Shown: positions 1 to 28,716 of the stretch, piece by piece
Layout of the letters: each line of letters begins with the position of its first letter
Position numbering within the stretch: the first letter of the stretch is position 1
DNA from: a virus
Strand: one strand, 5' to 3'
DNA length: 33,964 bases
Virus record (IMG/VR): IMGVR_UViG_3300025108_000196
Coordinates: 1 to 33,964 of that record
Made by a program: the position numbers and the translations under genes
Notes under the pieces: model-generated
Seen by the model: only the letters and a program-made list of their open reading frames with translations
What the model was told of the DNA's origin: nothing
Database searches by the model: none

Positions 1-22
1 ATAAAGTAAAAGCTCTTTACGA

Positions 23-169
23 CTAGTTTTTTATAGCGCACTATACCTGTACAAACCTAGTTTTTTATGGCGCGCATTAACTTACTCTATCTAGTTTTTT
101 ATAGCGCGCTCGCTAGTTTTTTATCGCGCGTTTTTTATGGCGCGCTCTCGCTGGTTTTTTATGGCGCGC
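23..169. repeat. Six-copy T6/CGCG repeat array, cluster 1
   Basis: Six copies of a sequence close to CTAGTTTTTTAYNGCGCGC begin at about 23, 57, 91, 113, 128 and 151. The T6-A core is invariant, the next two bases vary, and the copy ends in an alternating CG run. Spacing is irregular (34, 34, 22, 15 and 23 nt). The copies lie in a gene-free stretch upstream of the gene at 473, and the same family recurs at 2983-3095 and 3450-3484, always in intergenic DNA of the left module. It could be an iteron or operator array. It is not a CRISPR, since copies are nearly adjacent and spacers are irregular. The binding protein is unknown. Confidence 0.8.
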
Positions 170-210
170 TTCCGCGCTGTTGCTGTTTCTAACTAGACCA
201 AACCACAGCG

Positions 211-260
211 CTCGAGAGCTAAAAATATTTCCGACTGGAAACCACAGCCCTCGAGAGCGC
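211..260. promoter_or_regulatory. Two CTCGAGAGC boxes
   Basis: CTCGAGAGC occurs at 211-219 and CTCGAGAGCGC at 250-260, each preceded by an ACCACAGC-like sequence. Two further copies at 3161-3171 and 3533-3542 stand 19-20 nt ahead of a TTTAACA box, so this looks like one element of a repeated upstream module. Here the distance to the TTTAACA boxes is longer, about 97 nt. The function is unknown. The sequence contains the CTCGAG palindrome and could be a protein-binding site. Confidence 0.55.
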
Positions 261-336
261 ATACCTTAATTTAGATCTCCCCAAAACGCTCCCCTATTCG
301 CGCGTTTATTAAAGGAACTGCGCGCGCGTATAATAA

Positions 337-404
337 TATATTTGTAATAAACAAATTTTTAACAAAACTTTAACATTTAAAATTTTAACAAAACTTTAAC
401 ATTT
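337..404 (+). promoter_or_regulatory. Upstream region of the 473 gene: -7-like box and two TTTAACA direct-repeat boxes
   Basis: TATATTTG at 337-344 matches the Bacteroidetes -7 consensus TAnnTTTG. It is followed by two identical 22-nt boxes at 357-378 and 383-404 (26-nt period). Each box contains two TTTAACA half-sites spaced 11 nt, about one helical turn. Similar boxes precede the genes at 3279 and 3659, ending 68-76 nt before each start codon, as the second box does here (69 nt). This fixed distance suggests an activator or operator site. Which -7 box is used for this gene is not clear. Confidence 0.5.
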
Positions 405-472
405 CAATTCTTGTTTATATGGTTTAATCTATTATATTGCAATATATTAATTTTTATAAAAACAGCGAATTT

Positions 473-1861
473 ATGGAACAGTTTAAAACAAACGAGCAAG
501 CCTTATTTTTAAACTTGCTTAAAAACCGAAGTGTTAATCAAGGTCAACCCGAACAGGTTTATCAAATGCCTTTTCAATGGTCGCCGTCGGGCATATCTTT
601 CGAGGGTCGATTAGTATTCAAAACAGTTTTTTCGGAAACACTATCATCGACATCAGCTATTACCGATGTAGACGACGCGCAAATAAACAGCCTTATATCT
701 AGTATGGTTGGCGATTTTATTCAGTATAAGCACGGTATCTTTTCTAGAGTTATCAAAAAACTTGACGAGAAACGTTTTTATCAAATACGTAGTTGGTTTA
801 TTACAAATTTTGACGACGACAAGTTGCCAGATTTTGTTACGAGAAATGTTTGGGGTGTGGGTAATATAGATTATCAAATTGACGGTAGAACTTTTATTAC
901 AGTTGATAGTGACGGTAGAATAAGCAACAAAGATTATTCAGCGTTGCTTGACGAAAGACTTTTTGTATTACTTGACCAGTCGGAAAATATGCGATGTGTT
1001 AAAATTGATACGGCATTTAGAAAAACTTTATCAGCTATGACTAGTTGGTCTTTTAGAACGGTTAATGGCTTATCCGAGCATTACTTTGATTATGACGTTG
1101 ACGAAAATCAGATATTTTGTAAGTATCTTAACGGAAGGCATACAAAGAGTTACACAGTTGGCAAGGGTTTAAAACGTATTGCATATCTTATGGAACAAGA
1201 CGACAGTGTATTGACCGATGCTTTTATCAAGGAGTTTTCTATGAAACTTAAAAATTGGGGTAAAGGTACTTTAGAAGTTGTTGGCGGTTCGGACATAGCG
1301 CATTTTTATCACGGCAATCAGTATTGCGAAAGTTCCGATACGGGTAGCCTTGCTAGTAGTTGTATGCGTGGCGATGACTATGAGGAATGTATTGATATGC
1401 TTTATTCGGATAACGCGAGTATGTTGATAATGCGTTCTAATATGGATAACGCAAAGATATTAGGTCGAGCTAACTTGTGGGTGTGTGACGACGGCACAAA
1501 GTTTATGGATAGAATATATTGTGCGGAAGAAAATATGCAACAGTTTAAGGATTGGGCAAATGACAACGGCTACTATCACAAGGGTCGTCAGTCTTATTCT
1601 AGACCTTGGCTAACCGTGTTAAACGGCAAAAGTAAAGAGCAACACTTAATGCAGATTACTTTAGATAGTGTTGACGGTTACGACGATAGCGATTTGCGAG
1701 CGCCTTATATGGACACTTTCAAATATCTAAATGTAGATACCAATGTGTTGCAGAATTATGCACCGCCACGTGGCGACGACGACCGTTGGTATTTCCTTGA
1801 GGGTACTTGTGGTTACGGCGAACGTATCGACACACAATATTCAATGCAATACGAAGTATAA
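473..1861 (+). CDS. Phage protein of unknown function with SSCMRG motif
   Basis: This 462-residue protein is rich in Asp and aromatic residues and has no membrane segment. The central SLASSCMRG motif (about residues 292-300) is followed by an acidic stretch, then LGRANLWVCDDG and FMDRIY. From memory, this order recurs in hypothetical proteins of large tailed phages, where the function is unknown. I chose the ATG at 473; an in-frame TTG at 437 would add 12 residues but lies close to the repeat boxes. The metallopeptidase gene begins 26 nt after its stop and has no repeat module of its own, so the two are probably co-transcribed. Asp codons are mostly GAC, unlike the genes right of 5011, which suggests a different origin for this module. 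It is surely a gene; the function is not known. Confidence 0.85.
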   Translation: MEQFKTNEQALFLNLLKNRSVNQGQPEQVYQMPFQWSPSGISFEGRLVFKTVFSETLSSTSAITDVDDAQINSLISSMVGDFIQYKHGIFSRVIKKLDEKRFYQIRSWFITNFDDDKLPDFVTRNVWGVGNIDYQIDGRTFITVDSDGRISNKDYSALLDERLFVLLDQSENMRCVKIDTAFRKTLSAMTSWSFRTVNGLSEHYFDYDVDENQIFCKYLNGRHTKSYTVGKGLKRIAYLMEQDDSVLTDAFIKEFSMKLKNWGKGTLEVVGGSDIAHFYHGNQYCESSDTGSLASSCMRGDDYEECIDMLYSDNASMLIMRSNMDNAKILGRANLWVCDDGTKFMDRIYCAEENMQQFKDWANDNGYYHKGRQSYSRPWLTVLNGKSKEQHLMQITLDSVDGYDDSDLRAPYMDTFKYLNVDTNVLQNYAPPRGDDDRWYFLEGTCGYGERIDTQYSMQYEV

Positions 1862-1887
1862 TTATTAACTTATTAAATCACATTAAA

Positions 1888-2913
1888 ATGATAAATTTAG
1901 AAAAAACATTAAGAGTACAAACGTCATCATATAAAAATAAAAATATGTTGCGTTATATTAAGAAGCAACTATCGTCGCTAGGCGCTAGTTATGACCAGGA
2001 TAAGCACGGTAACATTTATGCTACCAAAGGCGAGGCGGACACGTATGTTTGTGCGGTAGCACATACGGACACAGTTCATAAGTTAGTGCCAAAAGCTAAC
2101 TTTAAAATTTACACCGACAAAAACATTTTGTTCAGCGTTGACACGCGTACATACAAGCGTTGCGGTATCGGTGGCGACGACAAGGTTGGAGTTTATGTGG
2201 CGTTGCATATTATGTCGCAAATGGACGCGTTCAAGTGCGCTTTCTTTGTTGACGAGGAGGTTGGTTGTGTCGGTTCAAGTCAAGCCGACGTTAAGTTTTT
2301 TGACGACGTTATATTGTGCGTTCAAGCAGACCGCAAGGGTGTTCGCGAAATTACATCTAGTATCAACGGCACGGAAATGTATTCAGACGCGTTTGGTACG
2401 AGTATTGCGCATATTATCAAGACGCATAACTTTGTTGAGGTTAATGGCGGTACTACCGACGTTGGGGAATTAGGCGACAAGTTGTTGAGTATTCCGATGT
2501 TCAATGTTGCGTGCGGGTATTACTTACCACATACTAGCGACGAGTATGTTAACACTATTGACGTTGACGACACGATTGCCTTTTTACGAGATGTTATTGA
2601 CTTTGTTATAGCTACACCACCGACGGACACTTGGACTAGACCCGAGTATACTTATGGTAATACTTTTTATGGCGGTTGGGATGCTTGGGATTATGGAGGA
2701 TATGGTAAGTCTATCAAGAAATCTAGTAAAAACAAGTTTAGACGCAAGTCTTATGAGGACTACAAGTGGGATGACAAGCGAGCTTGTTGGGTAGACAAAG
2801 ACAAGAAAGATGACGATAAGATTAGTTGCCAGGTTTGTAACGGAAGTATGGTTGACACATATCAAGGAGATGCTTGGTGTAGGGAATGTGGAGCTTGGCA
2901 ACAAACAATCTAG
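1888..2913 (+). CDS. M20/M28/M42-like zinc metallopeptidase with C-terminal zinc ribbon
   Basis: A 341-residue protein resembling di-zinc aminopeptidases of the tripeptidase T / M20-M42 group. Visible metal and catalytic motifs are AHTDTVH (H59, D61), GIGGDDKVG (D97/D98), FVDEEVG (E123/E124), QADRKG (D148) and PHTSDE (H215), in the family order. Residues 250-310 are a low-complexity Tyr/Gly/Lys linker, and a CxxC...CxxC zinc ribbon follows (C314, C317, C331, C334). Family members cleave N-terminal residues from peptides; the target here is unknown. The ATG at 1888 begins the homologous part; upstream in-frame codons overlap the previous gene and look spurious. A terminator follows at 2951. 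The zinc ribbon after the peptidase is unusual and suggests nucleic-acid or protein binding. Confidence 0.8.
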   Translation: MINLEKTLRVQTSSYKNKNMLRYIKKQLSSLGASYDQDKHGNIYATKGEADTYVCAVAHTDTVHKLVPKANFKIYTDKNILFSVDTRTYKRCGIGGDDKVGVYVALHIMSQMDAFKCAFFVDEEVGCVGSSQADVKFFDDVILCVQADRKGVREITSSINGTEMYSDAFGTSIAHIIKTHNFVEVNGGTTDVGELGDKLLSIPMFNVACGYYLPHTSDEYVNTIDVDDTIAFLRDVIDFVIATPPTDTWTRPEYTYGNTFYGGWDAWDYGGYGKSIKKSSKNKFRRKSYEDYKWDDKRACWVDKDKKDDDKISCQVCNGSMVDTYQGDAWCRECGAWQQTI

Positions 2914-2950
2914 CTTTTTTAGTATTCGCAGATTTTTAGGCTAGAGTGTA

Positions 2951-2980
2951 AACGGTTGGTTTTTTAATCAGCCGTTTTTT
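2951..2980 (+). terminator. Intrinsic terminator after the metallopeptidase
   Basis: AACGGTTG at 2951-2958 pairs with CAGCCGTT at 2969-2976 (one G-U pair) and runs straight into a T6 tract. It closes the two-gene unit 473-2913 and lies just ahead of the next T6/CGCG cluster. Confidence 0.75.
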
Positions 2981-2982
2981 AG

Positions 2983-3095
2983 CTAGTTTTTTATCGCGCT
3001 GTGGAGCGTTTTTTATCGGGCGCGTTTTTTACCGCGCGAGCATGCTGTTTTTTAATATCTGCTTTTTTATCTCGCTAGTTTTTTACCGCGCGAGC
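2983..3095. repeat. T6/CGCG repeat array, cluster 2
   Basis: About six copies or near-copies of the cluster 1 repeat begin at 2983, 3006, 3022, 3045, 3061 and 3075. Two end in ACCGCGCGAGC in place of ATNGCGCGC, and those at 3045 and 3061 are degenerate after the T6. After the array, CACTAGATAG is repeated in tandem (3107-3126 region). The cluster stands in the gap between the terminator at 2951 and the promoter region of the small gene at 3279. Confidence 0.75.
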
Positions 3096-3160
3096 TCACT
3101 AGATAGCTCACTAGATAGCTTCCTAAACCTTTCTGTCTAGCATTTCTTCTAACAACAGCA

Positions 3161-3237
3161 CTCGAGAGCGCAAATAAACTTTAACATAATTTTAACAAAA
3201 TTTTAACATTTACATCTATTCTACTTTTGTACTTTTG
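3161..3237 (+). promoter_or_regulatory. Promoter module of the 3279 gene
   Basis: From left to right: CTCGAGAGCGC (3161-3171), a TTTAACA direct-repeat box (3190-3211, one base different from the other copies), then two TACTTTTG boxes back to back at 3222-3229 and 3230-3237. Both match the Bacteroidetes -7 consensus TAnnTTTG. The ATG at 3279 is 41 nt downstream of the last box. This is the most complete copy of the module, and the tandem -7 boxes could give two start points. Confidence 0.6.
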
Positions 3238-3278
3238 CCTTGAACAAAATTTTTATTTAACCCTAAAATAACATTATT

Positions 3279-3440
3279 ATGAAGACATTAATTACATTTT
3301 TATTGAGCTTTTCAATCGTAACACTAACATTTTTAAACGAGCCGTCTAACTTTGTACCGCTTCTATTTTTAGCGTGCTTTATTAATCTGGCTATAATCGG
3401 GATTAAAACTCGCGTAAAAACTCCCGTAAATAAAGCTTAA
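3279..3440 (+). CDS. Small two-helix membrane protein
   Basis: A 53-residue ORF beginning MKTLITFLLSFSIVTLTF. It has two hydrophobic segments (about residues 3-19 and 26-42) joined by a short polar NEPSN turn, and a basic tail (KTRVKTPVNKA). No family is recognised. It has its own promoter module directly upstream, which is the best support that it is real. It could be a small membrane-targeted accessory protein such as a holin-like, superinfection-exclusion or toxin peptide; nothing in the sequence decides between these. It stands alone between two repeat clusters. Confidence 0.65.
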   Translation: MKTLITFLLSFSIVTLTFLNEPSNFVPLLFLACFINLAIIGIKTRVKTPVNKA

Positions 3441-3449
3441 TTTTTAGCG

Positions 3450-3484
3450 CCATTTTTTACCTCGCGTGTTTTTTATCGCGCGCA
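3450..3484. repeat. T6/CGCG repeats, cluster 3
   Basis: Two adjacent copies: CCATTTTTTACCTCGCG at 3450-3466 and GTGTTTTTTATCGCGCGC at 3467-3484. They begin 10 nt after the stop codon of the small membrane protein and precede the CTCGAGAGCG box at 3533, repeating the order seen upstream of the 473 and 3279 genes. Confidence 0.65.
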
Positions 3485-3532
3485 CTGTGTAGAAATCTGG
3501 CGCTATATTTTTGCCTATCTGTAACGGGAGCA

Positions 3533-3640
3533 CTCGAGAGCGTAAAAATACCCCAAAAAAATTTTAACAAAACTTTAACATTTCATTAACACTTTTATAT
3601 TACCTTCTAAATTATATTTGTATTGTTGCAACGGTGCAAC
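3533..3640 (+). promoter_or_regulatory. Promoter module of the 3659 gene with 5' leader hairpin
   Basis: CTCGAGAGCG at 3533-3542 is followed 20 nt later by a TTTAACA direct-repeat box at 3562-3583, identical to the two boxes before the 473 gene. A -7 match, TATATTTG, lies at 3613-3620. Just downstream, GTTGCA at 3625-3630 and TGCAAC at 3635-3640 form a perfect 6-bp inverted repeat with an ACGG loop. This would be a hairpin at the very 5' end of the mRNA or an operator overlapping the start point. The ATG follows at 3659. Confidence 0.55.
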
Positions 3641-3658
3641 ACTTAAAAATCACATATT

Positions 3659-4285
3659 ATGAATAAAGTTCAAGTAATTAGTAAAATTGAAAGCCTTAAC
3701 GTATTGACGCCTAACAAGTTAGCGACGTTAAAAGGTAAACAAGTAAAGGAAATCGTCGCGTTTTATCATGCGACATTATGCAACTTAATTAAGCCTTTAG
3801 GATTACCCGAAAATGTTAGCGCGACCCTATCAATACAACGTCTAGAAACGTTAGCGGATAATTACAAGCAAACGGACAAAGCCCACAAAACAACTTTTAA
3901 AGCGGGCGCTTTAGGTTTACGCCAAACGGCGGTAATTAACGCGGTTAACGACATTAACGCGGGTAAAATTGACGGCGTTTCTTTCCCGATTGATATTAAA
4001 CAATTCAAAAATATTGTTTGCGGTTATTATGCTAGCAAATATTTTGTTTTGGACGGTATGAACCCGCAAAATTTAGCAAGTGTCGAAACGTTATTTAACG
4101 CGGGGTTAATTACATTAATAGACGGTGTCGACGAAAAAACCGTTTTAGACCAATTAAAGAAAAACGGTTATTTTGCGGGCGCTAATTCATATAGTACAAC
4201 GCATAAAAATAGCACAACAAACAACGATATTTTTACCTTTGTTTTGGCTAAAGATGGCGCTAAATTGACTTTTACGGCAAAGTAA
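3659..4285 (+). CDS. Unknown 208-residue protein
   Basis: A soluble 208-residue protein with no recognised domain, membrane segment or catalytic motif. The N-terminal half is helical and basic (for example KLATLKGKQVKEIVAFYHA). The middle contains GALGLRQTAVINAVNDIN, and the C-terminus is Ser/Thr/Asn-rich before a final beta-like stretch. It has the strongest promoter module of the left region and is followed by a clean terminator at 4314, so it appears to be expressed alone. It could be a regulator or DNA-binding protein acting on the repeats around it, but nothing in the sequence proves that. The ATG at 3659 is 19 nt after the leader hairpin. Confidence 0.8.
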   Translation: MNKVQVISKIESLNVLTPNKLATLKGKQVKEIVAFYHATLCNLIKPLGLPENVSATLSIQRLETLADNYKQTDKAHKTTFKAGALGLRQTAVINAVNDINAGKIDGVSFPIDIKQFKNIVCGYYASKYFVLDGMNPQNLASVETLFNAGLITLIDGVDEKTVLDQLKKNGYFAGANSYSTTHKNSTTNNDIFTFVLAKDGAKLTFTAK

Positions 4286-4313
4286 TGGTCTAATACTAGC
4301 GAAAGCTAAAAAG

Positions 4314-4345
4314 CCCTTATAATTGATTTATAGGGGTTTTTTTTT
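4314..4345 (+). terminator. Intrinsic terminator after the 3659 gene
   Basis: CCCTTATAA at 4314-4322 pairs with TTATAGGGG at 4328-4336 (one G-T wobble), with a five-base loop and then a run of nine T. It ends the left module; beyond it the composition changes. Confidence 0.85.
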
Positions 4346-4673
4346 GGCTTTTTTTCAAGGTGGGGGGGGGTCGGATGCTACTCCTGTGCAGACCCCTTTC
4401 TCGGATAAAATTCAAATAAATCAGACCATACTTCGGCTTGAACTTCATCGAACTGGATTGTTTCGCTGCAGATCGTCAGCCCTGGGGAGCAATCCTTGTG
4501 GCTGCGGAGCGCTGTGTGTGTATTTATGTGAGTAAGTAAGAGTGGTTGCCAAACTTTTTGTGTTAAAAAATGGCAACTCGAAGGCAACCCTTGTCATTCC
4601 TGGGGTTTAGCCAAATTGCCTTTCTTCTTCTTTTTTTTTTTTCAAAAATATACAGAGTTAGGCAAAACGGTAG
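4346..4673. other. Gene-free stretch of atypical composition
   Basis: This stretch has no convincing gene. It holds a G8 run (about 4363-4370), a relatively GC-rich block (about 4480-4520), a 6-bp inverted pair GGATTG/CAATCC around 4455-4496, a pyrimidine tract ending in T12 (4621-4642) and the first five GGCAA iterons (from 4546). It lies between the terminator of the left module and the inverted repeat. The homopolymer runs are where an assembly or recombination junction might be. Confidence 0.6.
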
Positions 4674-4825
4674 AATGGGGGTTGGCGTGTGAGAAATTCC
4701 AGCGGTTGTGTTTTAGTGAAAGTTAGGCAACTTACAAAAAAACGCTTGTTAGTGGCAGTGTTTTCGGGGGTTGCCTATGGATTGCCTTGGTAAAAATAGG
4801 CAAGTTAGGTTTGGCAACAAGGCAA
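4546..4825. repeat. GGCAA iteron cluster, candidate replication origin
   Basis: Eleven GGCAA cores occur within 280 bp. Those on the + strand start at 4572, 4583, 4661, 4726, 4799, 4813 and 4821; those on the - strand (as TTGCC) start at 4546, 4616, 4771 and 4782. Many extend to TAGGCAAC or AAGGCAAC. The cluster ends about 190 bp before the SF3 helicase gene. Iterons beside the replication gene are typical of origins, with the helicase or a host factor as partner. Six of these sites are inside the inverted-repeat arm, and five of those six are conserved in the right arm. Confidence 0.5.
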
Positions 4826-4907
4826 CTTGGTTTGGTTAGGGAGTAAGTTTTGGAGTGTAAATATGTTAATAAATATTATATTATCTTTGTATCAGATTAA
4901 TTTAACT
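4674..4907 (+). repeat. Left arm of a 234-bp inverted repeat
   Basis: Positions 4674-4907 are the reverse complement of 33731-33964, with a single difference (C at 4801 against the complement of A at 33837). The arm contains six GGCAA iterons and a TATCTTTG promoter box that fires inward. Similarity stops sharply at 4908. At the outer side the right copy ends with the window, so the true repeat may be longer. Confidence 0.95.
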
Positions 4908-4920
4908 TTTGTTATATTTG
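4882..4920 (+). promoter_or_regulatory. Tandem promoter boxes for the rightward operon
   Basis: TATCTTTG at 4882-4889 (inside the inverted repeat) and TATATTTG at 4913-4920 (unique to the left side) both match the Bacteroidetes -7 consensus TAnnTTTG. No convincing -33 TTTG lies at the usual distance for either. Transcripts would start near 4896 and 4927, upstream of the hairpin at 4961 and the helicase ATG at 5011. Confidence 0.6.
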
Positions 4921-4960
4921 TAATATGTTAGTTGCGGACAAAAAGATATTTTTAATAAAT

Positions 4961-5005
4961 GCCTATTGGAAAAGAAACGCAACTTCTTAACCGATAGGCT
5001 TTTTT
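4961..5005 (+). terminator. Attenuator-like hairpin in the helicase leader
   Basis: GCCTATTGG at 4961-4969 pairs with CCGATAGGC at 4991-4999 (one mismatch), with a 21-nt loop, directly followed by a T6 run (5000-5005). It lies between the promoter boxes (4882-4920) and the helicase ATG at 5011. Transcripts stopped here would be about 80-110 nt long. It may be an attenuator limiting helicase expression or the end of a short regulatory RNA. The hairpin also argues against the in-frame TTG at 4966 as the helicase start. Confidence 0.6.
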
Positions 5006-5010
5006 ATTTT

Positions 5011-6537
5011 ATGGAAAAAAACTTAATACACATTTACAACACTATTCATTATGAACACGCTATTAGAGTGTTTAAGGCATCCGATAAATCTATTGGCACT
5101 AGAAAAGCTAAAGAATTAGAAGTAAACAAAAACGTTTACTTTACATATAATTTAAATGAAACTTTTGATTTTGCTGTATTTAACACTAAAATAGGAATGT
5201 TTCATATTTTAAAAAATGATACATTTCTTACGCCTTTCGATATGCTATGTAAAATAAAACACAACAACTGTGTTCTACCCGCATTTTATGAAATAGAATT
5301 ACTTATAAAAAAATCAAAAATACCTTTTATTCGTGTTGCAAGCGATTATTTCAAGGTGCTAGAGGACAATGAATTGATTGGATATAATAAGTCGGAGATT
5401 AGGCAAGACTATGGAAAAGATGTTTTTGATGTCATAAAGTCTTATGATAAATTTGGTGTTTTTCCTAATAACATAAACTATAAAGAAAGTATAGGTAATA
5501 TGTTAAACACGTATCACAGACCTATGAATAAGGCTTTTAGTGGCGAAAAAATAGAATGGGGGGATGAAAGAATTAAGTGGTCTATGTCTATGTTATCGCA
5601 TATTTTCGGGGATATGTTAGATTTAGGCATTGAATACGTGCAACAATTATGGTGTAATCCTAAACAGATGTTACCTATATTGGTTTTAGCGTCGGTAGAA
5701 AGGCAAACGGGTAAAACAACGTTTAGTAATTGGCTAAATAGTATTTTGGGCGACAACCACGTATCTTTAGGATTAGAGGATATGAAAGGCGATTTTAACC
5801 ATTTCTTTGCCGAAAAACTACTAGTATCAATAGAGGAAACGCAAGATGAATCGCATAAACTAGTAAATAAACTTAAAAGAATTAGTACAACTAGCAAAAT
5901 GTTAGTAAATCCTAAAGGAGTTAAGCAATATGTTGTAGATTTCTACGGAAAACTATTAATTCTTACAAATTCGCCCGATAATTTCTTAAAAATAGACGAT
6001 GAGGAAATAAGGTTTTGGGTAATGAATATTCCTACGCTAGTTGGTAAGGGAAATCATAATATTGTAGAGGATTTAGAAAAAGAAATACCATTTTTCTTAA
6101 ACTTTCTAGAAAACCTACCTATGCAAGAAAAAAGGTCTAGAATGTGGTTTCATCCAAGCGAGATTATTACAAGCACGCTAGAAAAGGTACAAAAAGAAAG
6201 TAAAAACAGTACGGTAAAAGATTTAATTTATTTATTTGAAAATGACTTGTATGACGAAATGGTAGTTTCGGGAAGGTCGGAAATGTATTTTAATGCAACG
6301 GATATTAAAGATAAATATTTTAGAAATAACAATTTAGTGACAAGAAATTATTTAAGTGGTGTTTTAGATGACTTAACAACTAAAGGTTTATTAAATAGTT
6401 CGGATAAAAAGATAAAATATATGCCTACTATTGGCGATATGTCAGCGCAAAGGGTTGGAAAGTGTTATTGGCTATCATTAAAAGGCGATGATTTAAAAGA
6501 AGTGGTTGTTGATGAAGATGATAATTTATTCTTTTAA
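5011..6537 (+). CDS. SF3-type replicative helicase (primase-helicase family, D5/DUF5906-like)
   Basis: This 508-residue protein has a superfamily 3 ATPase core in its middle. The Walker A-like loop is VERQTGKT (about 229-236), Walker B is LLVSIEE (270-276), motif C is LLILTN (315-320), and the likely arginine finger lies in EEIRFW (R334). The N-terminal 220 residues resemble no primase I can recognise, and the C-terminal 130 residues look like a winged-helix region. Family members unwind DNA as hexamers at phage and plasmid origins. The ATG at 5011 follows the attenuator. It sits next to the GGCAA iterons and is the only recognisable replication protein here, so it probably recruits host polymerase. 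The P-loop lacks the usual first Gly (S in its place). Confidence 0.85.
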   Translation: MEKNLIHIYNTIHYEHAIRVFKASDKSIGTRKAKELEVNKNVYFTYNLNETFDFAVFNTKIGMFHILKNDTFLTPFDMLCKIKHNNCVLPAFYEIELLIKKSKIPFIRVASDYFKVLEDNELIGYNKSEIRQDYGKDVFDVIKSYDKFGVFPNNINYKESIGNMLNTYHRPMNKAFSGEKIEWGDERIKWSMSMLSHIFGDMLDLGIEYVQQLWCNPKQMLPILVLASVERQTGKTTFSNWLNSILGDNHVSLGLEDMKGDFNHFFAEKLLVSIEETQDESHKLVNKLKRISTTSKMLVNPKGVKQYVVDFYGKLLILTNSPDNFLKIDDEEIRFWVMNIPTLVGKGNHNIVEDLEKEIPFFLNFLENLPMQEKRSRMWFHPSEIITSTLEKVQKESKNSTVKDLIYLFENDLYDEMVVSGRSEMYFNATDIKDKYFRNNNLVTRNYLSGVLDDLTTKGLLNSSDKKIKYMPTIGDMSAQRVGKCYWLSLKGDDLKEVVVDEDDNLFF

Positions 6538-7750: not shown

Positions 7751-8092
7751 ATGTCAGAAACAAGATTACAACAAGAAATTATAATGTGGTTTAACAACGA
7801 ATACCCTTTATATAGGGGTTTGTTGTGCTACAATAACAATAATTCAACGGGAAGTGTTCGCGGTGTTTGGAATAAATTTTTAGGAATTATAAAGGGTAGG
7901 TCAGATTTAACGTTTTATTTTAACGGAAATGCGTATATGATAGAATTAAAAACGTTAAAAGGGAGACAAAGTGAAGCACAAAAGGATTGGGAAAAATTAA
8001 TAGTAAGGCACGGATTTACTTATATAGTAGTGCGTTCGTTACAAGATTTTAAAATCGCAATACACAAAATAATAAATCATTTGGAATATTAA
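7751..8092 (+). CDS. VRR-NUC domain nuclease
   Basis: A 113-residue stand-alone VRR-NUC protein of the PD-(D/E)xK superfamily. The features are E3xxLQxEI at the N-terminus, the GR-SDL block with D52, IELK with E65 and K67, then Q73 and the QxxW motif (Q77, W80). These are the full catalytic set. Free-standing VRR-NUC proteins of about 100 residues are frequent in phages and are thought to cut branched DNA during replication or packaging. It is the last gene of the early block, and the promoter at 8080-8110 begins inside its 3' end. Confidence 0.88.
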   Translation: MSETRLQQEIIMWFNNEYPLYRGLLCYNNNNSTGSVRGVWNKFLGIIKGRSDLTFYFNGNAYMIELKTLKGRQSEAQKDWEKLIVRHGFTYIVVRSLQDFKIAIHKIINHLEY

Positions 8093-8127: not shown

Positions 8128-9432
8128 ATGAAATTACTTGGGTATAATTGGCAGTTTCCACTTTGGTTTAGAAATCGCGAGGGGGAGAATTTTTACGACT
8201 ATACAACCGCTAACGGTTGGTATCAATCAAAAAACAATTTAGCAATTGCACAAGAACACCCACTACTTACACCAGCATTATTATTTGTTGCAAAACTATT
8301 TTCACAAGCAGAATTTAAAGTTTGTAGAAAAAGTAATGGCGAAACAGCGCCAAATCATCCAATGATAAGCGTGTTGAAAAAACCAAACGCAAATCAAACA
8401 CTTCCAGATTTATTAGAAAGTTTATTGTTTAGCCAATTAGCAAATGGCGTAGGTGTATTATATATTAAAAGAAATGCTTTAATAGGAAAACCTAATTCAT
8501 TATACGTTTTAGATTATCAATTAATAGAGTTTCCCGAAAATCTAGAAAAGTCTAAATTTATAAATAAAAGTCAAAACGAAAAATATTTAAACAAAGAAAT
8601 TATTTATGACGAGTGTGGGGAAAACATTAAAATAAAATTAAAAGATTTATTGTTCTTTTATGATTTACCTAATTACTTAAACGAAAATCCTTTCGATGTT
8701 AAGTCAAGGCTCGACGGCTTAAAACAGACTTTAATAAATAGTATTGATAGCGCAAAGGCTAAAAATATAATTATAAAATCTAACGGTAAAGAATTAATTA
8801 CGGGTCAAAAAGACGGATTCCCTTTAACACCAGATGAAAAGAAAGATGTAGAAGATAGATTTAACGGAAGTTATGGTGTTGGTTATAATAGAAAAAGAGG
8901 TATTGTTACTAAAGCAAATATTAAGTGGCAATCTTTACATATTATTGCAAGGGATTTAGGACACGACGAAGGCACTAAAACGGATGCAAGTGTAATATTT
9001 GCAGCTTTACACATTCCAAATGATGTTTATTCTATTACGGGCGCAAAGTCTACTTATAAAAATGCAAACGCATCTTTAATTAGTTATATTCAAAACGAAA
9101 TGATGCCTACATTAAATAGCTTTATAGAAACTATACAGCCTTTGTTTGGCGACAATTATTATTTAAAAGGGGATTACAACCACTTACCAGTTATGTTGCC
9201 TAGTCTAACTATTACTTATCAAAATTTAAGCCTACAAATGAAAGCTCTAAATGATGCTAGAATGACGGGTATTAGTGATAAAGACGCTTTAGAAATGGTA
9301 GGTTTGCCTAGAACACTAGAGTTAAAACCAGTTAAGCCATTAAGTTCGACGGGGGAAAATTCAGAACAACAAGAAGAAGAAGAAAATAACGATAATCAAA
9401 ACGAAGAAAATGAGCAAAGCGGAAGTAATTAA
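8128..9432 (+). CDS. Portal protein (HK97 family)
   Basis: This 434-residue protein has the plan of HK97-type portals. The N-terminal segment has HPLLTPALLFVAKLFSQAEFKV (about 44-65), then NHPMISVLKKPN, a central LANGVGVLYIKRNA strand, the late GTKTDASVIFAALHIPNDV region and NEMMPTLNSFIETI helix, and an acidic Gln/Glu/Asn tail of about 30 residues. Portals form the dodecameric ring through which TerL pumps DNA. It is followed by the protease and the capsid gene, the usual order. TerL itself is far away, on the other strand. Confidence 0.85.
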   Translation: MKLLGYNWQFPLWFRNREGENFYDYTTANGWYQSKNNLAIAQEHPLLTPALLFVAKLFSQAEFKVCRKSNGETAPNHPMISVLKKPNANQTLPDLLESLLFSQLANGVGVLYIKRNALIGKPNSLYVLDYQLIEFPENLEKSKFINKSQNEKYLNKEIIYDECGENIKIKLKDLLFFYDLPNYLNENPFDVKSRLDGLKQTLINSIDSAKAKNIIIKSNGKELITGQKDGFPLTPDEKKDVEDRFNGSYGVGYNRKRGIVTKANIKWQSLHIIARDLGHDEGTKTDASVIFAALHIPNDVYSITGAKSTYKNANASLISYIQNEMMPTLNSFIETIQPLFGDNYYLKGDYNHLPVMLPSLTITYQNLSLQMKALNDARMTGISDKDALEMVGLPRTLELKPVKPLSSTGENSEQQEEEENNDNQNEENEQSGSN

Positions 9433-9535
9433 AAATTTACAAATAACTTTATCAAAAGACGGAAATCCAGAGGTAAAAAAGGTAATAAGAAAAAGATTAG
9501 AAAAATTAACTAAAGATGAAATAATAAAAAAATAA
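9410..9535 (+). CDS. Small basic protein between portal and protease
   Basis: A 41-residue ORF that overlaps the portal end by 23 nt and stops 2 nt before the protease ATG. It begins MSKAEVIKNLQITLSKDGN and is basic and helical towards the end (RKRLEKLTKDEIIKK). No family is recognised. Tight packing within the head cluster supports it. It might be a minor head or scaffolding-associated protein, but its size leaves room for doubt. Confidence 0.55.
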   Translation: MSKAEVIKNLQITLSKDGNPEVKKVIRKRLEKLTKDEIIKK

Positions 9536-9537
9536 TT

Positions 9538-10317
9538 ATGGAAATACCAAAAGAATTAATAGGAAAAGAGCTACACGCTTTTTTAAAAGAAAATAAAAGC
9601 GACTTAATTTATGCTAAAAAAAGCGCAATTAAAACATCTGATTCTATTTCGTCGGTTTCATTAATGGGTAACAATATTGATGCTAAAAAAGGTTTTTCTA
9701 ATGACAATAAAGATGAAATAAAAGTACGTGCAATTATAAACACAACGAATGTAATTGACAGTCATAAGGATGTTCATTTAGACGGTATTTGGAACAAGTC
9801 TTTAAAAGAAAACAAAAACATAAAGTTTTTACAAGAACATAAAATGTCTTTTAAAACAATTATTGCAGACCGTGATGATTTAAAAGTTTCATCTAATAAT
9901 GTTTCTTGGAAAAGTTTAGGTTATGATTTTGAAGGCAAAACGGATGCACTTACTTTTGACGCTACTATAAAAAGGAATAGAAATAAAGAAATGTTCAAAG
10001 AATATAGTGAGGGTAATGTTGATAATCATAGTGTTGGTATGCAATATGTGAAAATGGAACTAGCATTATATTCAGAGGATGAAGATTACGAGGAAGAAAA
10101 AGCGGTTTGGGATAAATATATTGATAAAATAGCTAATAAAGATGTTGCTATAAAATCAAGTTATTTTTGGGCTGTTTCCGAAGCTAAAGTTATAGAGGGT
10201 AGTGCGGTTGTAATGGGTAGTAATTCTTTTACGCCAACTATTCAATCCGATAAAGAAACAAAAGAAATAATCGAAACAAAAGATAACGCCATAGTTGAAT
10301 GGCTTAAAAATAATTAA
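9538..10317 (+). CDS. Prohead maturation protease (S78-like)
   Basis: A 259-residue protein with the layout of HK97-type prohead proteases. The strand IKVRAIINTT is followed by NVIDSHKDVHLDGIW, the likely catalytic His in FLQEHKM (H101) and the Ser in NHSVGMQY (S165). The first 60 residues are Lys/Ser-rich. The protease trims the capsid protein's delta domain and then itself. It lies directly upstream of the capsid gene with no separate scaffold gene, consistent with the capsid's own N-terminal delta domain. An acidic stretch (SEDEDYEEE) after the Ser motif is unusual. Confidence 0.78.
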   Translation: MEIPKELIGKELHAFLKENKSDLIYAKKSAIKTSDSISSVSLMGNNIDAKKGFSNDNKDEIKVRAIINTTNVIDSHKDVHLDGIWNKSLKENKNIKFLQEHKMSFKTIIADRDDLKVSSNNVSWKSLGYDFEGKTDALTFDATIKRNRNKEMFKEYSEGNVDNHSVGMQYVKMELALYSEDEDYEEEKAVWDKYIDKIANKDVAIKSSYFWAVSEAKVIEGSAVVMGSNSFTPTIQSDKETKEIIETKDNAIVEWLKNN

Positions 10318-10408
10318 AGCCGTCATTAGACACTTTAACTAAAAGATGCAAGCCGTGTAAAACACTTGTATAGAAATGAATTAATATAAATTTTTAAAAT
10401 TATTTAAA

Positions 10409-11611
10409 ATGAAAAACGAAGAAATTCAAAAAATGCTTGATGACAAGTTTAAGTCTGTACAAGACGAACTTGCAACGGCACAAGAAAATGGTGCTACTAA
10501 AGAAGAATTAGTAGAGCTTTCAAACGCTATTGAAAAAGCTGGAAACAGTTTAGAAGATTTTATTGCAAGTCAAACAAAAAATGAATTAAAAAGCTACCAA
10601 GCTCAATTTAAAGATTTTTTAGTTGAAAAAGCTAATGAAATTAAAGAAATGTTTGAAAACGGTAGTGGTTCAATCGAATTTACACCTAAAGCAGTAGCTG
10701 ATATTACAACAGCTTCAGGAACGGATGCGGTTCAATTTCCAGCAACGGCACACAATGATTTAGAAGGGTTTAATTTAAGAAACGATGATGTATTGGTTTC
10801 TATGGCTAACGTATCTTCTAGTTCAAGTCCTGTTTTTTCTTATTCAGAATTAGAGCCAAAAGACGGAGATTATTCTTTTGTAGCTGAGGGAGCAGAAAAG
10901 CCACAAATTGATTTCAAATGGGTTAACCGTTTTGCGCAACCTTACAAGATTGCAGCTCACGAAATTTTAACAGAAGAGGCGGTAACGGATGTAGCTAGAC
11001 TACAATCGGTTGCTAACGAATATCTTGTTAAAAAGCACGGACTTTTCAAAGCAAACAAACTTTATTTTGGAACGGGTGTAGGAAACGAGGCTGAAGGAGC
11101 TACCGTTGTTGGTAGAACTTTTGTAGCGGGAGATATGGCTGGCGAAGTAACAGACCCAAATTTTATGGATGTAGTTAATGCGTGTATTACTGATATTTAT
11201 ACTACACATAACTATACTGACGAATCTAGCTATATGGCTAACATTGTATTAATTAACCCAGTTGATTTTTACTTACAATTAGTATCTGCTAAAGACGGAC
11301 AAGGATTACCATTATATCCACAAGCTGGATTATTTAATCAAGTTACGATTGGTGGAGTTACTATTAAGCCTTGGGATAAAATTCCAGCAGGAAAGATTTT
11401 TGTAGCAGATATGAAAGCTATGAATGTTATTAATTATGTTCCTTTTTCTGTTCGTTTAGGTTGGATAAATGACCAATTTATTACTAACCAATTCACAATG
11501 GTAGGTGAGTCTAGGTATTTCCAATTTGTTAAAAATTTAGATAGACAAGCGTTTATTTATGACGACATAGCAACTGTAAAAGCAGCTATATCAAAAGGCG
11601 CGGGTGCATAA
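10409..11611 (+). CDS. Major capsid protein (HK97 fold)
   Basis: A 400-residue protein. Residues 1-85 are a charged coiled-coil delta domain (e.g. KNEEIQKMLDDKFKSVQDEL), then an HK97-fold body with FVAEGAEKPQIDFKW (about 157-171), the E-loop-like AAHEILTEEAV region and the P-domain and A-domain stretch VLINPVDFYLQLV...GLPLYPQAG. The C-terminal strand YFQFVKNLDRQAFIYDDIATVKAA is also typical. It would form the icosahedral shell. A 91-nt gap with an AT-rich leader precedes it, the largest gap in the head cluster, which may help high expression, although no clear TAnnTTTG box is present there. Confidence 0.88.
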   Translation: MKNEEIQKMLDDKFKSVQDELATAQENGATKEELVELSNAIEKAGNSLEDFIASQTKNELKSYQAQFKDFLVEKANEIKEMFENGSGSIEFTPKAVADITTASGTDAVQFPATAHNDLEGFNLRNDDVLVSMANVSSSSSPVFSYSELEPKDGDYSFVAEGAEKPQIDFKWVNRFAQPYKIAAHEILTEEAVTDVARLQSVANEYLVKKHGLFKANKLYFGTGVGNEAEGATVVGRTFVAGDMAGEVTDPNFMDVVNACITDIYTTHNYTDESSYMANIVLINPVDFYLQLVSAKDGQGLPLYPQAGLFNQVTIGGVTIKPWDKIPAGKIFVADMKAMNVINYVPFSVRLGWINDQFITNQFTMVGESRYFQFVKNLDRQAFIYDDIATVKAAISKGAGA

Positions 11612-11627
11612 TTAAAAAATAAACAAA

Positions 11628-11822
11628 ATGGCAAAATCAAAAAGTATTAGTACAGGTAGCGGAAAATCAAAAACTAAAAAAGTTGTAAAACCAACAAAAG
11701 GTATGGTTTCCGTAAAATTCCTAAAAGATTTTGGGAGTTATAAAAAAAAGGATGTAGCTTCGTATAACATTACGACTGTTTCAGCCTTAATTGACAAAAA
11801 AATCTGTGCTATTGTTGAATAG
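11628..11822 (+). CDS. Small basic head-associated protein A
   Basis: A 64-residue protein with a Lys/Ser-rich N-terminus (KSKSISTGSGKSKTKK) and a beta-rich C-terminal half (MVSVKFLKDFGSYKKKDVAS) ending in SALIDKKICAIVE. The C-terminal plan (fl...g.yk..d...i....a..Li....a) is like small capsid or connector-associated proteins located after the capsid in many phages. The protein at 13077 has the same plan, so the two may be paralogs flanking the connector genes. The exact role is unknown. Confidence 0.7.
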   Translation: MAKSKSISTGSGKSKTKKVVKPTKGMVSVKFLKDFGSYKKKDVASYNITTVSALIDKKICAIVE

Positions 11823-11839
11823 TATATAAAACAAGTGAT

Positions 11840-12541
11840 ATGATAACGACACCTAATTTTTATAAAAATGAAATATATTTGCCTAATGCGAAAGAATCGG
11901 TTACTGGGGATGTTATGAGCATTCAAAGTGAACTATTGGATTTCATTAGCGAATATGAGGAAGAGTGTCTTATTACTTGTTTAGGTTATCAATTAGCCAA
12001 TAATTTTATGTCTAATTTGGATAGTAGCGAGGATAATGGATTAATTCCAACCGCTGATGTTAAATGGGATAGGCTTTTAAATGGATATGAATATGTTAAC
12101 CCAAAGGGAGAAACGGTTAAATGGAAAGGCGTTGTTTTTTCTACGTTTTCTGGTGGCGTTAACGATAAAAGTTTTCTAGCTTATTATGTGTATTATTTTT
12201 ACGAAAGTAATGCCTATATAACACGTTCAGATTTAGGGCATCAAATTGAGGTTTCTAAAAATGCCGAAACAGTTACGCCTACACAAAAAGTCACAAAGGC
12301 TTTTCGTAAATTTATAGATATGGTTCAAGGTGGTTATTATAGCTACCCCGAGCCTAAATTCTGGAGAGATTTAGGTAATAATTTAGTAGGTATTGATTAC
12401 TATCAGCAAAGGAAAAAGAATAGAGGTATAAGTTTATATACTTTCATATCGAATATGAACGAATTAAATGGGGATGATTATTATAATGATTTCCTACCAT
12501 TTGAACATATTATGAAAGAATCTAATGAATTTGGAATATAA
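11840..12541 (+). CDS. Putative head-tail connector (DUF6712-like)
   Basis: A 233-residue protein between capsid and tail genes. The stretch FISEYEEECLITCLGYQLANNF (about 35-56) followed by KSFLAYYVYYFYESNAYITRS is the pattern of Bacteroidetes phage connector proteins, where a helical N-terminal part is followed by aromatic membrane-like helices. The last residues lie in an acidic helix. Its TAA shares a base with the next ATG (TAATG), implying coupled translation. The role as adaptor under the portal is inferred from position and this pattern. Confidence 0.6.
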   Translation: MITTPNFYKNEIYLPNAKESVTGDVMSIQSELLDFISEYEEECLITCLGYQLANNFMSNLDSSEDNGLIPTADVKWDRLLNGYEYVNPKGETVKWKGVVFSTFSGGVNDKSFLAYYVYYFYESNAYITRSDLGHQIEVSKNAETVTPTQKVTKAFRKFIDMVQGGYYSYPEPKFWRDLGNNLVGIDYYQQRKKNRGISLYTFISNMNELNGDDYYNDFLPFEHIMKESNEFGI

Positions 12542-13074
12542 TGAGCAACGTTAAGAATATTATAATTACGGAAAAAAGGTTAAAAGAAATGTTTGACCTA
12601 TTACCTAATTCTGAAGCTATTGACGGCTCGGCATCTTTCAAGCCTATATTTGGCTACGGCGACAAAAAAGAATTAAACGCTTTTTTAAAAGCTAAAAATC
12701 TTGTTAAGACCCGAACGCCTTATCCTTTAATTTGGTTATTATATCCGTACAATGAATATCATTGTAAGACAAATGTTGAAATCGAAAGATTATCGTTAAT
12801 TCTAGCGGTTCAAACTAATGCGTCAATGGGCAACGAAAAGCGAATAAATAGTACATTTAGTAAAATATTATTTCCATTATTGAATAATATTAAATGGTTA
12901 TTTACAAGAGCTATAATTGTAAATTGGGATAATAAGTTTGAATTAACAAAGTACCCTAATTATTCGGAGGACGATAGTGCTACGGAACACGCAGGAACTT
13001 TTATATGGGATGCGCTAAAATTTGTTATAGATGTTAAAATTACGGATGATTGTTTAAATAAAGTTAATTTTTAA
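12541..13074 (+). CDS. Putative tail terminator / head-tail joining protein
   Basis: A 177-residue soluble protein. Features are YPLIWLLYPYNEY (about 61-73), then NVEIERLSLILAVQTN and a C-terminal strand-rich segment with FIWDALKFVIDVKI. Proteins that cap the tail tube commonly sit between the connectors and the tube protein and have this alternation of strand and helix with a late hydrophobic strand. No specific motif proves it. It overlaps the previous gene by one base and ends 2 nt before the next ATG. Confidence 0.5.
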   Translation: MSNVKNIIITEKRLKEMFDLLPNSEAIDGSASFKPIFGYGDKKELNAFLKAKNLVKTRTPYPLIWLLYPYNEYHCKTNVEIERLSLILAVQTNASMGNEKRINSTFSKILFPLLNNIKWLFTRAIIVNWDNKFELTKYPNYSEDDSATEHAGTFIWDALKFVIDVKITDDCLNKVNF

Positions 13075-13076
13075 TT

Positions 13077-13265
13077 ATGGAAGAAAAACCTAAAAAAAAG
13101 AAAAGAACCCCTAGAAAAAAGAAATCTAAATTTATTGGAATAGTTATTTCTGATAAATTTAGAAAAAAAGGGCAACTTATTCCAAAAGGAACAAAGTATG
13201 ACGCTATCGAAGAAGATAGTTACAATGTATTAATTAATAATGGGTATATAAAATCCCAAAAATAA
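13077..13265 (+). CDS. Small basic head/tail-associated protein B
   Basis: A 62-residue protein starting with a highly basic arm (EEKPKKKKRTPRKKKSK), then IGIVISDKFRKKGQLIPKG and a final helix YNVLINNGYIKSQK. It resembles the 64-residue protein at 11628 in size, basic N-terminus and C-terminal pattern. It lies directly before the tail tube gene. The basic arm suggests contact with DNA or with an acidic surface of the neck. The function is not known. Confidence 0.65.
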   Translation: MEEKPKKKKRTPRKKKSKFIGIVISDKFRKKGQLIPKGTKYDAIEEDSYNVLINNGYIKSQK

Positions 13266-13277
13266 ATAAAAATAAAA

Positions 13278-14249
13278 ATGGCAACAATAAGTAATATTGC
13301 AAATAAAAAAGAATGTGGTAGCGGAGTAACGGCTAACACTGGAAAATTAGGGTGCTTGTCGCTATTCGGCACACCAACACACGCGCTTTTAGTAGCTAAA
13401 GGATTTACCTTGAACGGTTCTGCTGATTGGACTGTTGAAACTATAAAGCAGTTGACAATGAAAGGACACGTTGTTCCTTTAATTGGAGCAAGTGCTTTTG
13501 AGGATGTTTCTTCTGAAGATACCTATTCTACTAGTGTAAACGGAGTTAAGAGATTAAGTCTTAAAGGATTACCTGAATACAAATTAACTTTCGAGGAAGG
13601 TCACGAATTTTATCGTCAATTAGATAGATTACGTGGTTTCAAAGATTGGGATGTTATTCTTGGGGATGAAAACGGAAATTGGCTAATGGGTATGTCAGGT
13701 TCAAATCAATATGGCGGATTAACAGCAGGTCATTTAACACCAGAAATTACTAAAAGAAAAGTAGCGGGTGGAGATGCTGAGTCAAAATCAATAATGTTTC
13801 AGTTTTTAGATAGATTACAATTTGACAGATATTACGCTATCTTAAACGCTGATGAATTAGATTTTTACCCAGAGGAAATTTTGGCTATTAACGGTGTTGA
13901 TGTAGATTTCCATACAGTTCCGTCTAACGGAGATACATCATTAGAGCTTGACATTTTACTTAACTCAGACCATAGTACGGGTATTCTTGGATTAGATTCA
14001 CAAGACTTTTATGTAAAAGTAAATGGAGCTACAGCTACGTTAGGAGTTCCTTCGCAAGACAATGTTGGGGGTACTTTATATACACTTCCAATTACAAGTC
14101 CTTCGTTAAATACTAACGACACACTTGAAGTTGGATTTAGCAACCCAATAATTGACAATGGAATTGGAAATCCTGGTGCAAATGCGTTCGGTAATCAAGG
14201 AGAGTTAGTTCGTGCTTTTCCTACATTAACGGGAACTGTTGTATTATAA
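13278..14249 (+). CDS. Major tail (tube) protein
   Basis: A 323-residue protein starting MATISNIANKKECGSGVTAN. The first 190 residues are consistent with a tail-tube fold (e.g. GLPEYKLTFEEGHEFYRQLDRL, about 97-118, and VILGDENGNWLMG). Residues 200-323 form a beta-rich, possibly Ig-like extension (EILAINGVDVDFHT through DFYVKVNGATATL). It is placed between the connectors and the tail chaperone/tape-measure genes, and a terminator follows at once at 14277. That is usual for a highly expressed tube gene at the end of a head-tail unit. Confidence 0.75.
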   Translation: MATISNIANKKECGSGVTANTGKLGCLSLFGTPTHALLVAKGFTLNGSADWTVETIKQLTMKGHVVPLIGASAFEDVSSEDTYSTSVNGVKRLSLKGLPEYKLTFEEGHEFYRQLDRLRGFKDWDVILGDENGNWLMGMSGSNQYGGLTAGHLTPEITKRKVAGGDAESKSIMFQFLDRLQFDRYYAILNADELDFYPEEILAINGVDVDFHTVPSNGDTSLELDILLNSDHSTGILGLDSQDFYVKVNGATATLGVPSQDNVGGTLYTLPITSPSLNTNDTLEVGFSNPIIDNGIGNPGANAFGNQGELVRAFPTLTGTVVL

Positions 14250-14276
14250 TAACTTAATTTTTTTTGATTAGTAAAG

Positions 14277-14307
14277 AGCCTAGCTAATTTAGTTAGGCTT
14301 TTTTTTT
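14277..14307 (+). terminator. Intrinsic terminator after the tail tube gene
   Basis: AGCCTAGCT at 14277-14285 pairs with AGTTAGGCT at 14291-14299 (one G-T wobble), with an AATTT loop, followed by a run of about nine T. It divides the head/tube genes from the rest of the tail genes. Confidence 0.85.
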
Positions 14308-14308
14308 G

Positions 14309-14316
14309 TAGATTTG
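14309..14316 (+). promoter_or_regulatory. TAnnTTTG box immediately before the 14321 gene
   Basis: TAGATTTG at 14309-14316 matches the -7 consensus and follows the terminator T-run directly. The ATG at 14321 is only 4 nt downstream, so a transcript would start at or next to the start codon (leaderless or nearly so). No -33 box is visible at the usual distance, so this may be a chance match. Confidence 0.35.
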
Positions 14317-14320
14317 CATT

Positions 14321-14785
14321 ATGAAATCGGAAGAATATATTAGATTATTAGAAAGCAATATAGATAAGCTACCAGCATTAGTTAAAAATTATGTTTATAA
14401 GCGTGGTGGCATTTTAAGAAGTGTTAAGCAAAGATTTTTAAAAAAAGGTGTTGACGGATATGGTAATAAATTAGGCACATATTCTAGCGCTACGATTAGA
14501 AGGAAAAAGAAAAAAGGTCAAATAACATCACACGTAACTTTAAGGGATAGTGGTCAATGGTATGAAAGTTTATTTTTAACATTTGAAGGAACGACATTAA
14601 TATTAGATAGCACCGATTTATCTTTAACCTCTAAACTTGTAGACGGCGAAAAATTATTTCCAGGTTATGGACAAGGTATAATGGAATTTAGTAAAGAAGA
14701 ACAGGTTATGATTGATAGTATTTTAGATGAATTTTATTTTGAACTATCAAAAAAACTAGAAAAAAATATAGATATTGAAATATGA
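14321..14785 (+). CDS. Tail completion / virion morphogenesis protein (HK97 gp10-like)
   Basis: A 154-residue protein. The signature is GVDGYGNKLGTYSSATIRRKKKKG (about 44-67) followed by VTLRDSGQWYESL (76-88), the plan of virion morphogenesis and gp10-like tail completion proteins: a basic segment, then LRDSG. It ends in a long acidic helix. Its stop overlaps the next start (ATGA). It is probably a neck or tail-completion protein; function by family resemblance only. Confidence 0.65.
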   Translation: MKSEEYIRLLESNIDKLPALVKNYVYKRGGILRSVKQRFLKKGVDGYGNKLGTYSSATIRRKKKKGQITSHVTLRDSGQWYESLFLTFEGTTLILDSTDLSLTSKLVDGEKLFPGYGQGIMEFSKEEQVMIDSILDEFYFELSKKLEKNIDIEI

Positions 14786-15405
14786 AAGTATATAAAGATT
14801 TAGACGAAATGCCTATTTATAATTTTTTTAAGGTAATGTATAACTTTGAAAAAAATATGAATTATTTATACAAAAAAAATAAACACAATAAAGATTTGTC
14901 AAAAGAGGAATTATTTAATACCTTTGAAGACCTACAACAAAAATACTTAAAGCTAACTTTTTCTAAATCAGACCTACAAGACGAAAAATTAAAAGCTAAA
15001 GTAACCTATCTGACGGGAATACAAGATATTATACAATCAGTTTTAAATTGTTATCTTGAAACGCATTATGAGGATGTTTTTTTAATTTTAAATGAATTTA
15101 AGATGTTTAAATTAAAACTACCAATAAAAACTGAGGATATAAAATATATTAAAAAGCAATTGCTTTTTATACAAAATAAAATTAATTTAAAGTTAGCTAG
15201 TTTTAAATTAAAACACAAAAAAGGACAAGAAAATTCTGAAGAATTAGAACATAACTTACAAAAAGATTTAGATAAACAAGCGCTTTCTTTAGAAACTTAT
15301 TTAGAATTAGGATATAAAATAGATGTTAAAAAAACATCAGTTTTAAGGTGGGTTAATTTAGTTAACTTATCAAATGAAAAAAGTGAACGAATAAAACAAT
15401 TATAA
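14782..15405 (+). CDS. Putative tail assembly chaperone-like protein
   Basis: A 207-residue, strongly helical, Lys/Glu-rich protein starting MKVYKDLDEMPIYNFFKVMY. This opening is common in Bacteroidetes phage proteins encoded between tail tube and tape measure. The C-terminal half is coiled-coil-like and ends with LELGYKIDVKKTSVLRWVNL. It holds the position of tail assembly chaperones, which keep the tape measure soluble. I see no slippery heptamer or overlapping frame of the lambda G/GT kind, so no frameshift is proposed. Confidence 0.5.
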   Translation: MKVYKDLDEMPIYNFFKVMYNFEKNMNYLYKKNKHNKDLSKEELFNTFEDLQQKYLKLTFSKSDLQDEKLKAKVTYLTGIQDIIQSVLNCYLETHYEDVFLILNEFKMFKLKLPIKTEDIKYIKKQLLFIQNKINLKLASFKLKHKKGQENSEELEHNLQKDLDKQALSLETYLELGYKIDVKKTSVLRWVNLVNLSNEKSERIKQL

Positions 15406-15406
15406 A

Positions 15407-15715
15407 ATGCAAATATTAGATTTAAGATTTGATGCTGATATAACTTTAAAAATAGACGAGGGAGTTTCTTATAAGCCGTCCATATCTGGAATTAGAACTT
15501 TAGATACGGAATACACTTTTTCTTGTAATGATATAGTAAAAACGGTTGCAAATGGCGGAATTACTTTAGTGAACAATAGTATAATAATTAATATTGATGA
15601 AAATGATTTTCCTAGAGGTCATTATAAAGGGTGTCTAGAGTCTAATTCAAAAATAGCGGGAATTTATAAATATTTTAAAATAGAAATAATAAGTTATGGG
15701 GTTGTTAGCTGTTAA
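15407..15715 (+). CDS. Small beta-rich tail protein
   Basis: A 102-residue beta-rich protein starting MQILDLRFDADITLKIDEG, with a middle DTEYTFSCNDIVKTV segment and FPRGHYKGCLES. There are no membrane segments. The end overlaps the following fibre-like gene by 20 nt. In Bacteroidetes phages such proteins head a fibre or baseplate cassette; I do not recognise a named family. Two Cys in the second half and an Asp/Asn-rich middle are its only notable features. Confidence 0.6.
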   Translation: MQILDLRFDADITLKIDEGVSYKPSISGIRTLDTEYTFSCNDIVKTVANGGITLVNNSIIINIDENDFPRGHYKGCLESNSKIAGIYKYFKIEIISYGVVSC

Positions 15716-16220: not shown

Positions 16221-16237
16221 TAATTAAATAATAAAAA

Positions 16238-17629: not shown

Positions 17630-17632
17630 AAA

Positions 17633-17920: not shown

Positions 17921-17921
17921 T

Positions 17922-18341: not shown

Positions 18342-18369
18342 TTAATAATAAAAATAAAAGTAAATTAAA

Positions 18370-24063: not shown

Positions 24064-24065
24064 TA

Positions 24066-26183: not shown

Positions 26184-26187
26184 TAAA

Positions 26188-26859: not shown

Positions 26860-26860
26860 T

Positions 26861-28381: not shown

Positions 28382-28391
28382 TAAACACGAT

Positions 28392-28698: not shown

Positions 28699-28716
28699 AT
28701 AATAAAATATAATAAA

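Follow-up and report, generated by a model that had tools for sequence, protein, structure and literature searches.

The core of a small marine Bacteroidetes-type tailed phage is flanked by two inverted copies of a noncoding control sequence, and the divergence pattern of these copies, together with a related phage that was assembled independently, shows that the repeat is genuine and actively homogenised. The window, i.e. the complete stretch of 33,964 nt that was analyzed, is an IMG/VR virus record classed as linear. Our preferred reading, which we hold with about even confidence, is a duplicated operator- or origin-like control region, whose copies are homogenised by recombination in a circular or concatemeric genome.

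An inverted repeat flanks the siphophage core

Left and right arm are complementary at 233 of 234 positions (Table 1), which confirms the near-perfect inverted repeat claimed in the preliminary description, and no other long inverted repeat is found within the window. When the window was resampled 20 times under an order-2 Markov model, the longest exact inverted matches ranged from 15 to 20 nt, which excludes a chance origin of the repeat. The arms consist of noncoding control DNA. The left arm is internal in the window, because 4673 bases with three genes lie outside of it, and these bases may be foreign. An exact search of IMG/VR with a 31-mer from the arm gave no matches.

The two arms enclose a core of about 28.8 kb in which Pfam and PHROGs scans identified the terminase, portal, major head protein and tape measure of a tailed siphophage (Caudoviricetes). 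For the terminase, portal and virion genes the cultured relatives are phages of Flavobacterium, Tenacibaculum and Polaribacter, with Cellulophaga also a host among the nearest; by portal, virion protein or terminase, the closest are Tenacibaculum phage JQ, whose record is annotated circular, Polaribacter phage P12002L and Flavobacterium Hattifnattvirus (25–37% identity). The final open reading frame of the rightward operon ends at 31329 and the terminase of the leftward operon at 31361, in agreement with the convergence near 31345 described before. In the window the terminase and RHH genes (31361–33722) form a separate operon that is convergent with the structural genes, unlike in the inspected cultured relatives: in L007, L091 and L092 the terminase precedes the portal and head genes on the same strand, which is the conventional order. 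None of these three relatives contains a long inverted repeat. An alignment of the terminase yielded 80 loci, with about 31–37% identity except for one contig of the related phage described below (L003), and long inverted repeats were absent from these loci save for one closely spaced pair of 104 nt and 78% identity in L010. The earlier statement that a long inverted repeat is unusual for a terminase phage is supported.

Table 1. Coordinates of the repeat arms, control elements and genes in the window.
Feature	Position	Strand	Remarks
Left module, foreign composition	1..4350	+	Three genes, own promoter repeats; terminator at 4308-4342
Phage peptidase (phrog_4191)	1888..2913	+	Kin of Cellulophaga phage phi38:1 and huge-phage proteins
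GGCAA/TTGCC array	4540..4830	.	11 sites; outside arm 4546-4661, inside arm 4726-4821
Left arm, inverted repeat	4674..4907	+	233/234 to right arm; inner boundary TTTAACT same in L004
Sole arm-arm mismatch	4801	.	C at 4801; T on right-arm strand, at 33837
TATCTTTG box, left arm	4882..4889	+	Sequence motif only
TATATTTG box, 6 nt outside left arm	4913..4920	+	Kept in L004 and L005
Helicase leader	4927..5010	+	Hairpin, then T run; upstream segment complementary to hairpin loop
DUF5906 (primase-helicase type)	5011..6537	+	First gene of rightward operon; Pfam PF19263, E 8e-17
VRR-NUC nuclease (Holliday-junction-resolvase-like)	7751..8092	+	Pfam/PHROGs scans
Head, tail and lysis genes	8128..31329	+	Portal, major head protein, tape measure, structural proteins, exonuclease, endolysin; Pfam/PHROGs scans
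Terminase large subunit (Terminase_3)	31361..32689	-	Pfam/PHROGs scans
Arc-like (RHH) regulator	33381..33722	-	First gene inside right arm; phrog_582, E 5e-6
Right arm, inverted repeat, cut by contig end	33731..33964	-	Outermost 127 nt equal left arm up to sole mismatch
TATCTTTG box, right arm	33749..33756	-	About 26 nt upstream of RHH gene ATG; sequence motif and position only

Concerted evolution of the arms and the end of the contig

In a second metagenome (IMG/VR 3300025120), a related phage is represented by a terminase-end contig (L003) and a helicase-end contig (L004), both with about 94% identity to the window. The starts of the two contigs are common over exactly 127 bases and then split, and the point of divergence is exactly the inner repeat boundary of the window (TTTAACT). 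Since the contigs of the related phage part at the identical boundary, the sequence comparison indicates that the inverted repeat is biological and not an accident of assembly. Furthermore, the arms are identical in 117–118 of 130 columns between the two phages (~90%), but within each genome they agree at 99.6–100% (233/234 in the window and 127/127 in the relative, whose arms were compared over 127 nt only). In the adjoining 500 bases on the core side, 497 and 483 positions are identical between the phages (97–99%). Had the copies evolved independently since the common ancestor, the arms of one genome should be about as different from each other as from those of the other phage, and this is not the case; thus, the arms are homogenised. 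Judged by this pattern, the inverted repeat was already present in the common ancestor and has since undergone concerted evolution of its copies, and a greater likeness within a genome than between related genomes is what is expected of a duplicated, homogenised control region.

A 34-mer specific for the relative matched only the two known contigs in IMG/VR and thus gave no outer contig of this phage. Alignment of the helicase across IMG/VR and GTDB genomes revealed no further relatives. The right end of a third phage (L005) was not found by terminase-based locus and IMG/VR partner-contig searches, so that conservation of the repeat rests on two related phages. In the control region of L005 a possible truncated RHH start (MDKKYLVKF) was considered as a moved repeat boundary and rejected, as the similarity is unconvincing: the score was equalled by 10 of 300 shuffles against the RHH N-terminus and by 179 of 300 against the whole protein, the DNA alignment was not significant, and no IMG/VR partner contig carries this stretch.

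From the contig end at 33964 to the sole mismatch the run of identity also measures exactly 127 nt. Metagenomes of this kind are commonly assembled using metaSPAdes up to k=127, and a length of 127 nt both in the window and in the two contigs of the relative is the expected product of such an assembly graph. Position 33964 is therefore most likely a vertex of the de Bruijn graph rather than the natural end of the repeat. As we infer that both arms merge into one graph path at this position, the right arm probably continues beyond it. The suggestion of an assembly end-artifact in the preliminary description thus applies to the end of the contig, but not to the repeat itself, whose inner boundary recurs in the independent assembly of the related phage. 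The k=127 signature, i.e. a mismatch one k-mer away from a contig end and common prefixes of 127 bases, may be reused to test whether a metagenome contig contains a true repeat or a cut end.

Putative control elements of the arms and possible origins of the left module

The region 4540–4907 contains 11 GGCAA/TTGCC sites, whereas about 0.45 are expected (core density 1.2 per kb; Poisson p ~2e-12). The counterpart in L005, located upstream of a helicase with 63% identity, has nine sites (p ~7e-8). Such an enrichment of iterated words that resemble binding sites is expected for a duplicated control region, and together with the homogenised copies it supports the duplicated control element that had been listed earlier as one option. 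The array represents putative binding sites, with the Arc-like RHH proteins encoded just inside the right arm as the most likely candidate binders; sites for a replication initiator are a less likely assignment. Besides the regulator at 33381–33722, a second small RHH-like open reading frame lies at about 33153–33305. On the left side the array and the similarity to L005 show that arm-type sequence reaches outward to about 4540, and the position of part of the array outside the 234-bp arm suggests a true element of greater length than the visible arm.

As described previously, each arm carries an inward-facing TATCTTTG box. The box in the right arm is likely the promoter of the RHH/terminase operon and the TATATTTG box likely the helicase operon's own promoter, both judged by motif and position. 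In the core, each strand has about one TAnnTTTG box per kb, so a box alone is weak evidence of a promoter. The TATATTTG box and the helicase leader are kept in all three genomes, whereas in L005 the box of the arm itself is not recognisably aligned. The proposal that both operons have their promoters within the repeat can hence be kept in part: a plausible RHH/terminase promoter lies in the arm, but the conserved box and leader of the helicase operon lie outside of it. In the terminator-like hairpin of this leader the loop CGCAAC is complementary to an upstream GTTGCG, and in L005 the pairing is kept as GTAGTG/CACTAC. Two compensatory pair changes distinguish the leaders of window and L005 (436–530), a scan against Rfam gave no family match, and the leader is possibly an attenuator or a pseudoknot.

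In our model of a duplicated control region, the core would carry two inward-facing copies, one per flank. The right copy would provide promoter and operators for the RHH/terminase operon, and the left copy would place the same operators directly upstream of the promoter and leader of the helicase operon. With the same operators at both operons, a single regulator would be able to control both, and such a shared operator would be a simple means of coupling two operons. Gene conversion between the copies would maintain their identity. The genome would be circular or concatemeric while replicating, as expected of a terminase phage, with the copies facing apart around a spacer, and the contig would stop at 33964 because the arms merge there in the assembly graph.

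The left module differs from the core in third-position GC (GC3 0.36–0.44 versus 0.18–0.27) and in its repeats, with 12 copies of the TTTTTTATCGCGC-type repeat versus one in the core and four copies of CTCGAGAGC versus none. Within 1–3600 the genes, all on one strand, are preceded by these repeats and by ATTTTAACAAAACTTTAACATTT, which resembles a promoter repeat that recurs throughout the genome of a different, larger phage. Two proteins encoded in 467–2913, one of them the phrog_4191 peptidase, have kin in the Cellulophaga phages phi38:1 and Calle_1 and in uncultured phages of 630–735 kb. Searches with the proteins of the module returned distant matches only, and no other genome carrying it was found. 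Between its terminator and the GGCAA array a noncoding segment (4350–4540) has 49% GC and a G run; it is a possible junction between two genomes. The module may be cargo, a piece of a longer repeat, or a separate replicon that the assembler attached somewhere between about 4350 and 4540, and its nature decides between the genome topologies.

Alternative explanations and known systems

It is conceivable, if somewhat unlikely, that the arms are the inverted terminal repeats of a linear genome, kept identical by end replication that is either protein-primed or proceeds via nuclease-resolved hairpin ends. Concerted evolution is how terminal repeats behave, an arm is present at both core ends without an alternative junction in either assembly, the compositionally foreign left module allows the core to end near 4350–4540, and the phage has genes for both a DUF5906 helicase and a VRR-NUC nuclease. 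However, a family B DNA polymerase, a terminal protein or a protelomerase was not seen in Pfam/PHROGs scans of most proteins of the window up to 33964, the Terminase_3 packaging enzyme indicates packaging from concatemers, and for the tailed phage SIO1 the terminal inverted repeats were later attributed to misassembly (PMC6775973). More specifically, a terminase-packaged siphophage that replicates as a linear molecule and keeps long inverted termini identical via end replication or hairpin resolution with the DUF5906 helicase and VRR-NUC is in our view unlikely. If true, linear inverted termini would be a life style not known for this phage group, and a terminal repeat would change the view of how the group replicates. 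The arms could also border the left module (1–4673) in a circle, as an exchangeable or invertible cargo segment, in line with the module's own codon composition and with promoter repeats that are all but missing from the core. We consider this improbable, since the vicinity of the arms yielded no recombinase gene, no circle is closed by an overlap between the first 127 nt of the contig and the right arm, sequence of the control-region kind reaches about 130 nt further out than the left arm, and a second genome with the left module was not found.

A fold-back or chimeric assembly would agree with a contig end within the repeat and with outer 127 nt that equal one k-mer. Only about one third of the IMG/VR inverted-repeat contigs that could be scored are near-complete (PMC8116208), and artefacts are suspected among the inverted ends of gut Caudoviricetes contigs (PMC9610469). 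Long inverted repeats in tailed-phage contigs usually fall under suspicion of being artefacts, but the independent assembly of the related phage sets the present case apart: the same inner boundary occurs in two separate assemblies of phages with 94% identity and the arms carry a mismatch, which makes an artefact very unlikely. The least credible alternative is an orientation switch, in which a single invertible control region would serve the helicase operon in one state and the terminase operon in the other. One promoter-bearing element does adjoin two operons, but flipping would place the outer end beside each operon and split the contigs on the core side, whereas both assemblies show the inner end alone at each operon; in addition, no integrase or invertase family was matched in the Pfam/PHROGs scans of the window proteins. 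The contig junctions are inner-end only, and an inversion of the spacer between the arms would be invisible in these contigs.

The concerted evolution of inverted copies recalls the inverted repeats of the chloroplast type, which are homogenised by gene conversion, but the arms of the window are far shorter, noncoding and located in a different replicon. Inverted repeats inside a tailed phage are known from the C segment of P1 and the G segment of Mu, where long inverted repeats flank invertible segments; unlike these, the arms of the window come without an invertase or halves of tail-fibre genes. Two inverted copies that flank a gene set and are kept identical also resemble the protein-primed phages phi29, PRD1 and Cp-1. 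In these phages a family B polymerase works by protein priming and the repeats form the exact ends, flanking all genes, whereas the window belongs to a terminase-type siphophage in which no such genes were found and the left arm is internal. For the marine tailed phage SIO1 (a cobavirus) inverted repeats of 251–637 bases have been reported, which were incompletely retrieved on resequencing and judged to be misplaced ends (PMC6775973). In contrast to SIO1, the boundary of the repeat described here recurs in a related phage that was assembled independently.
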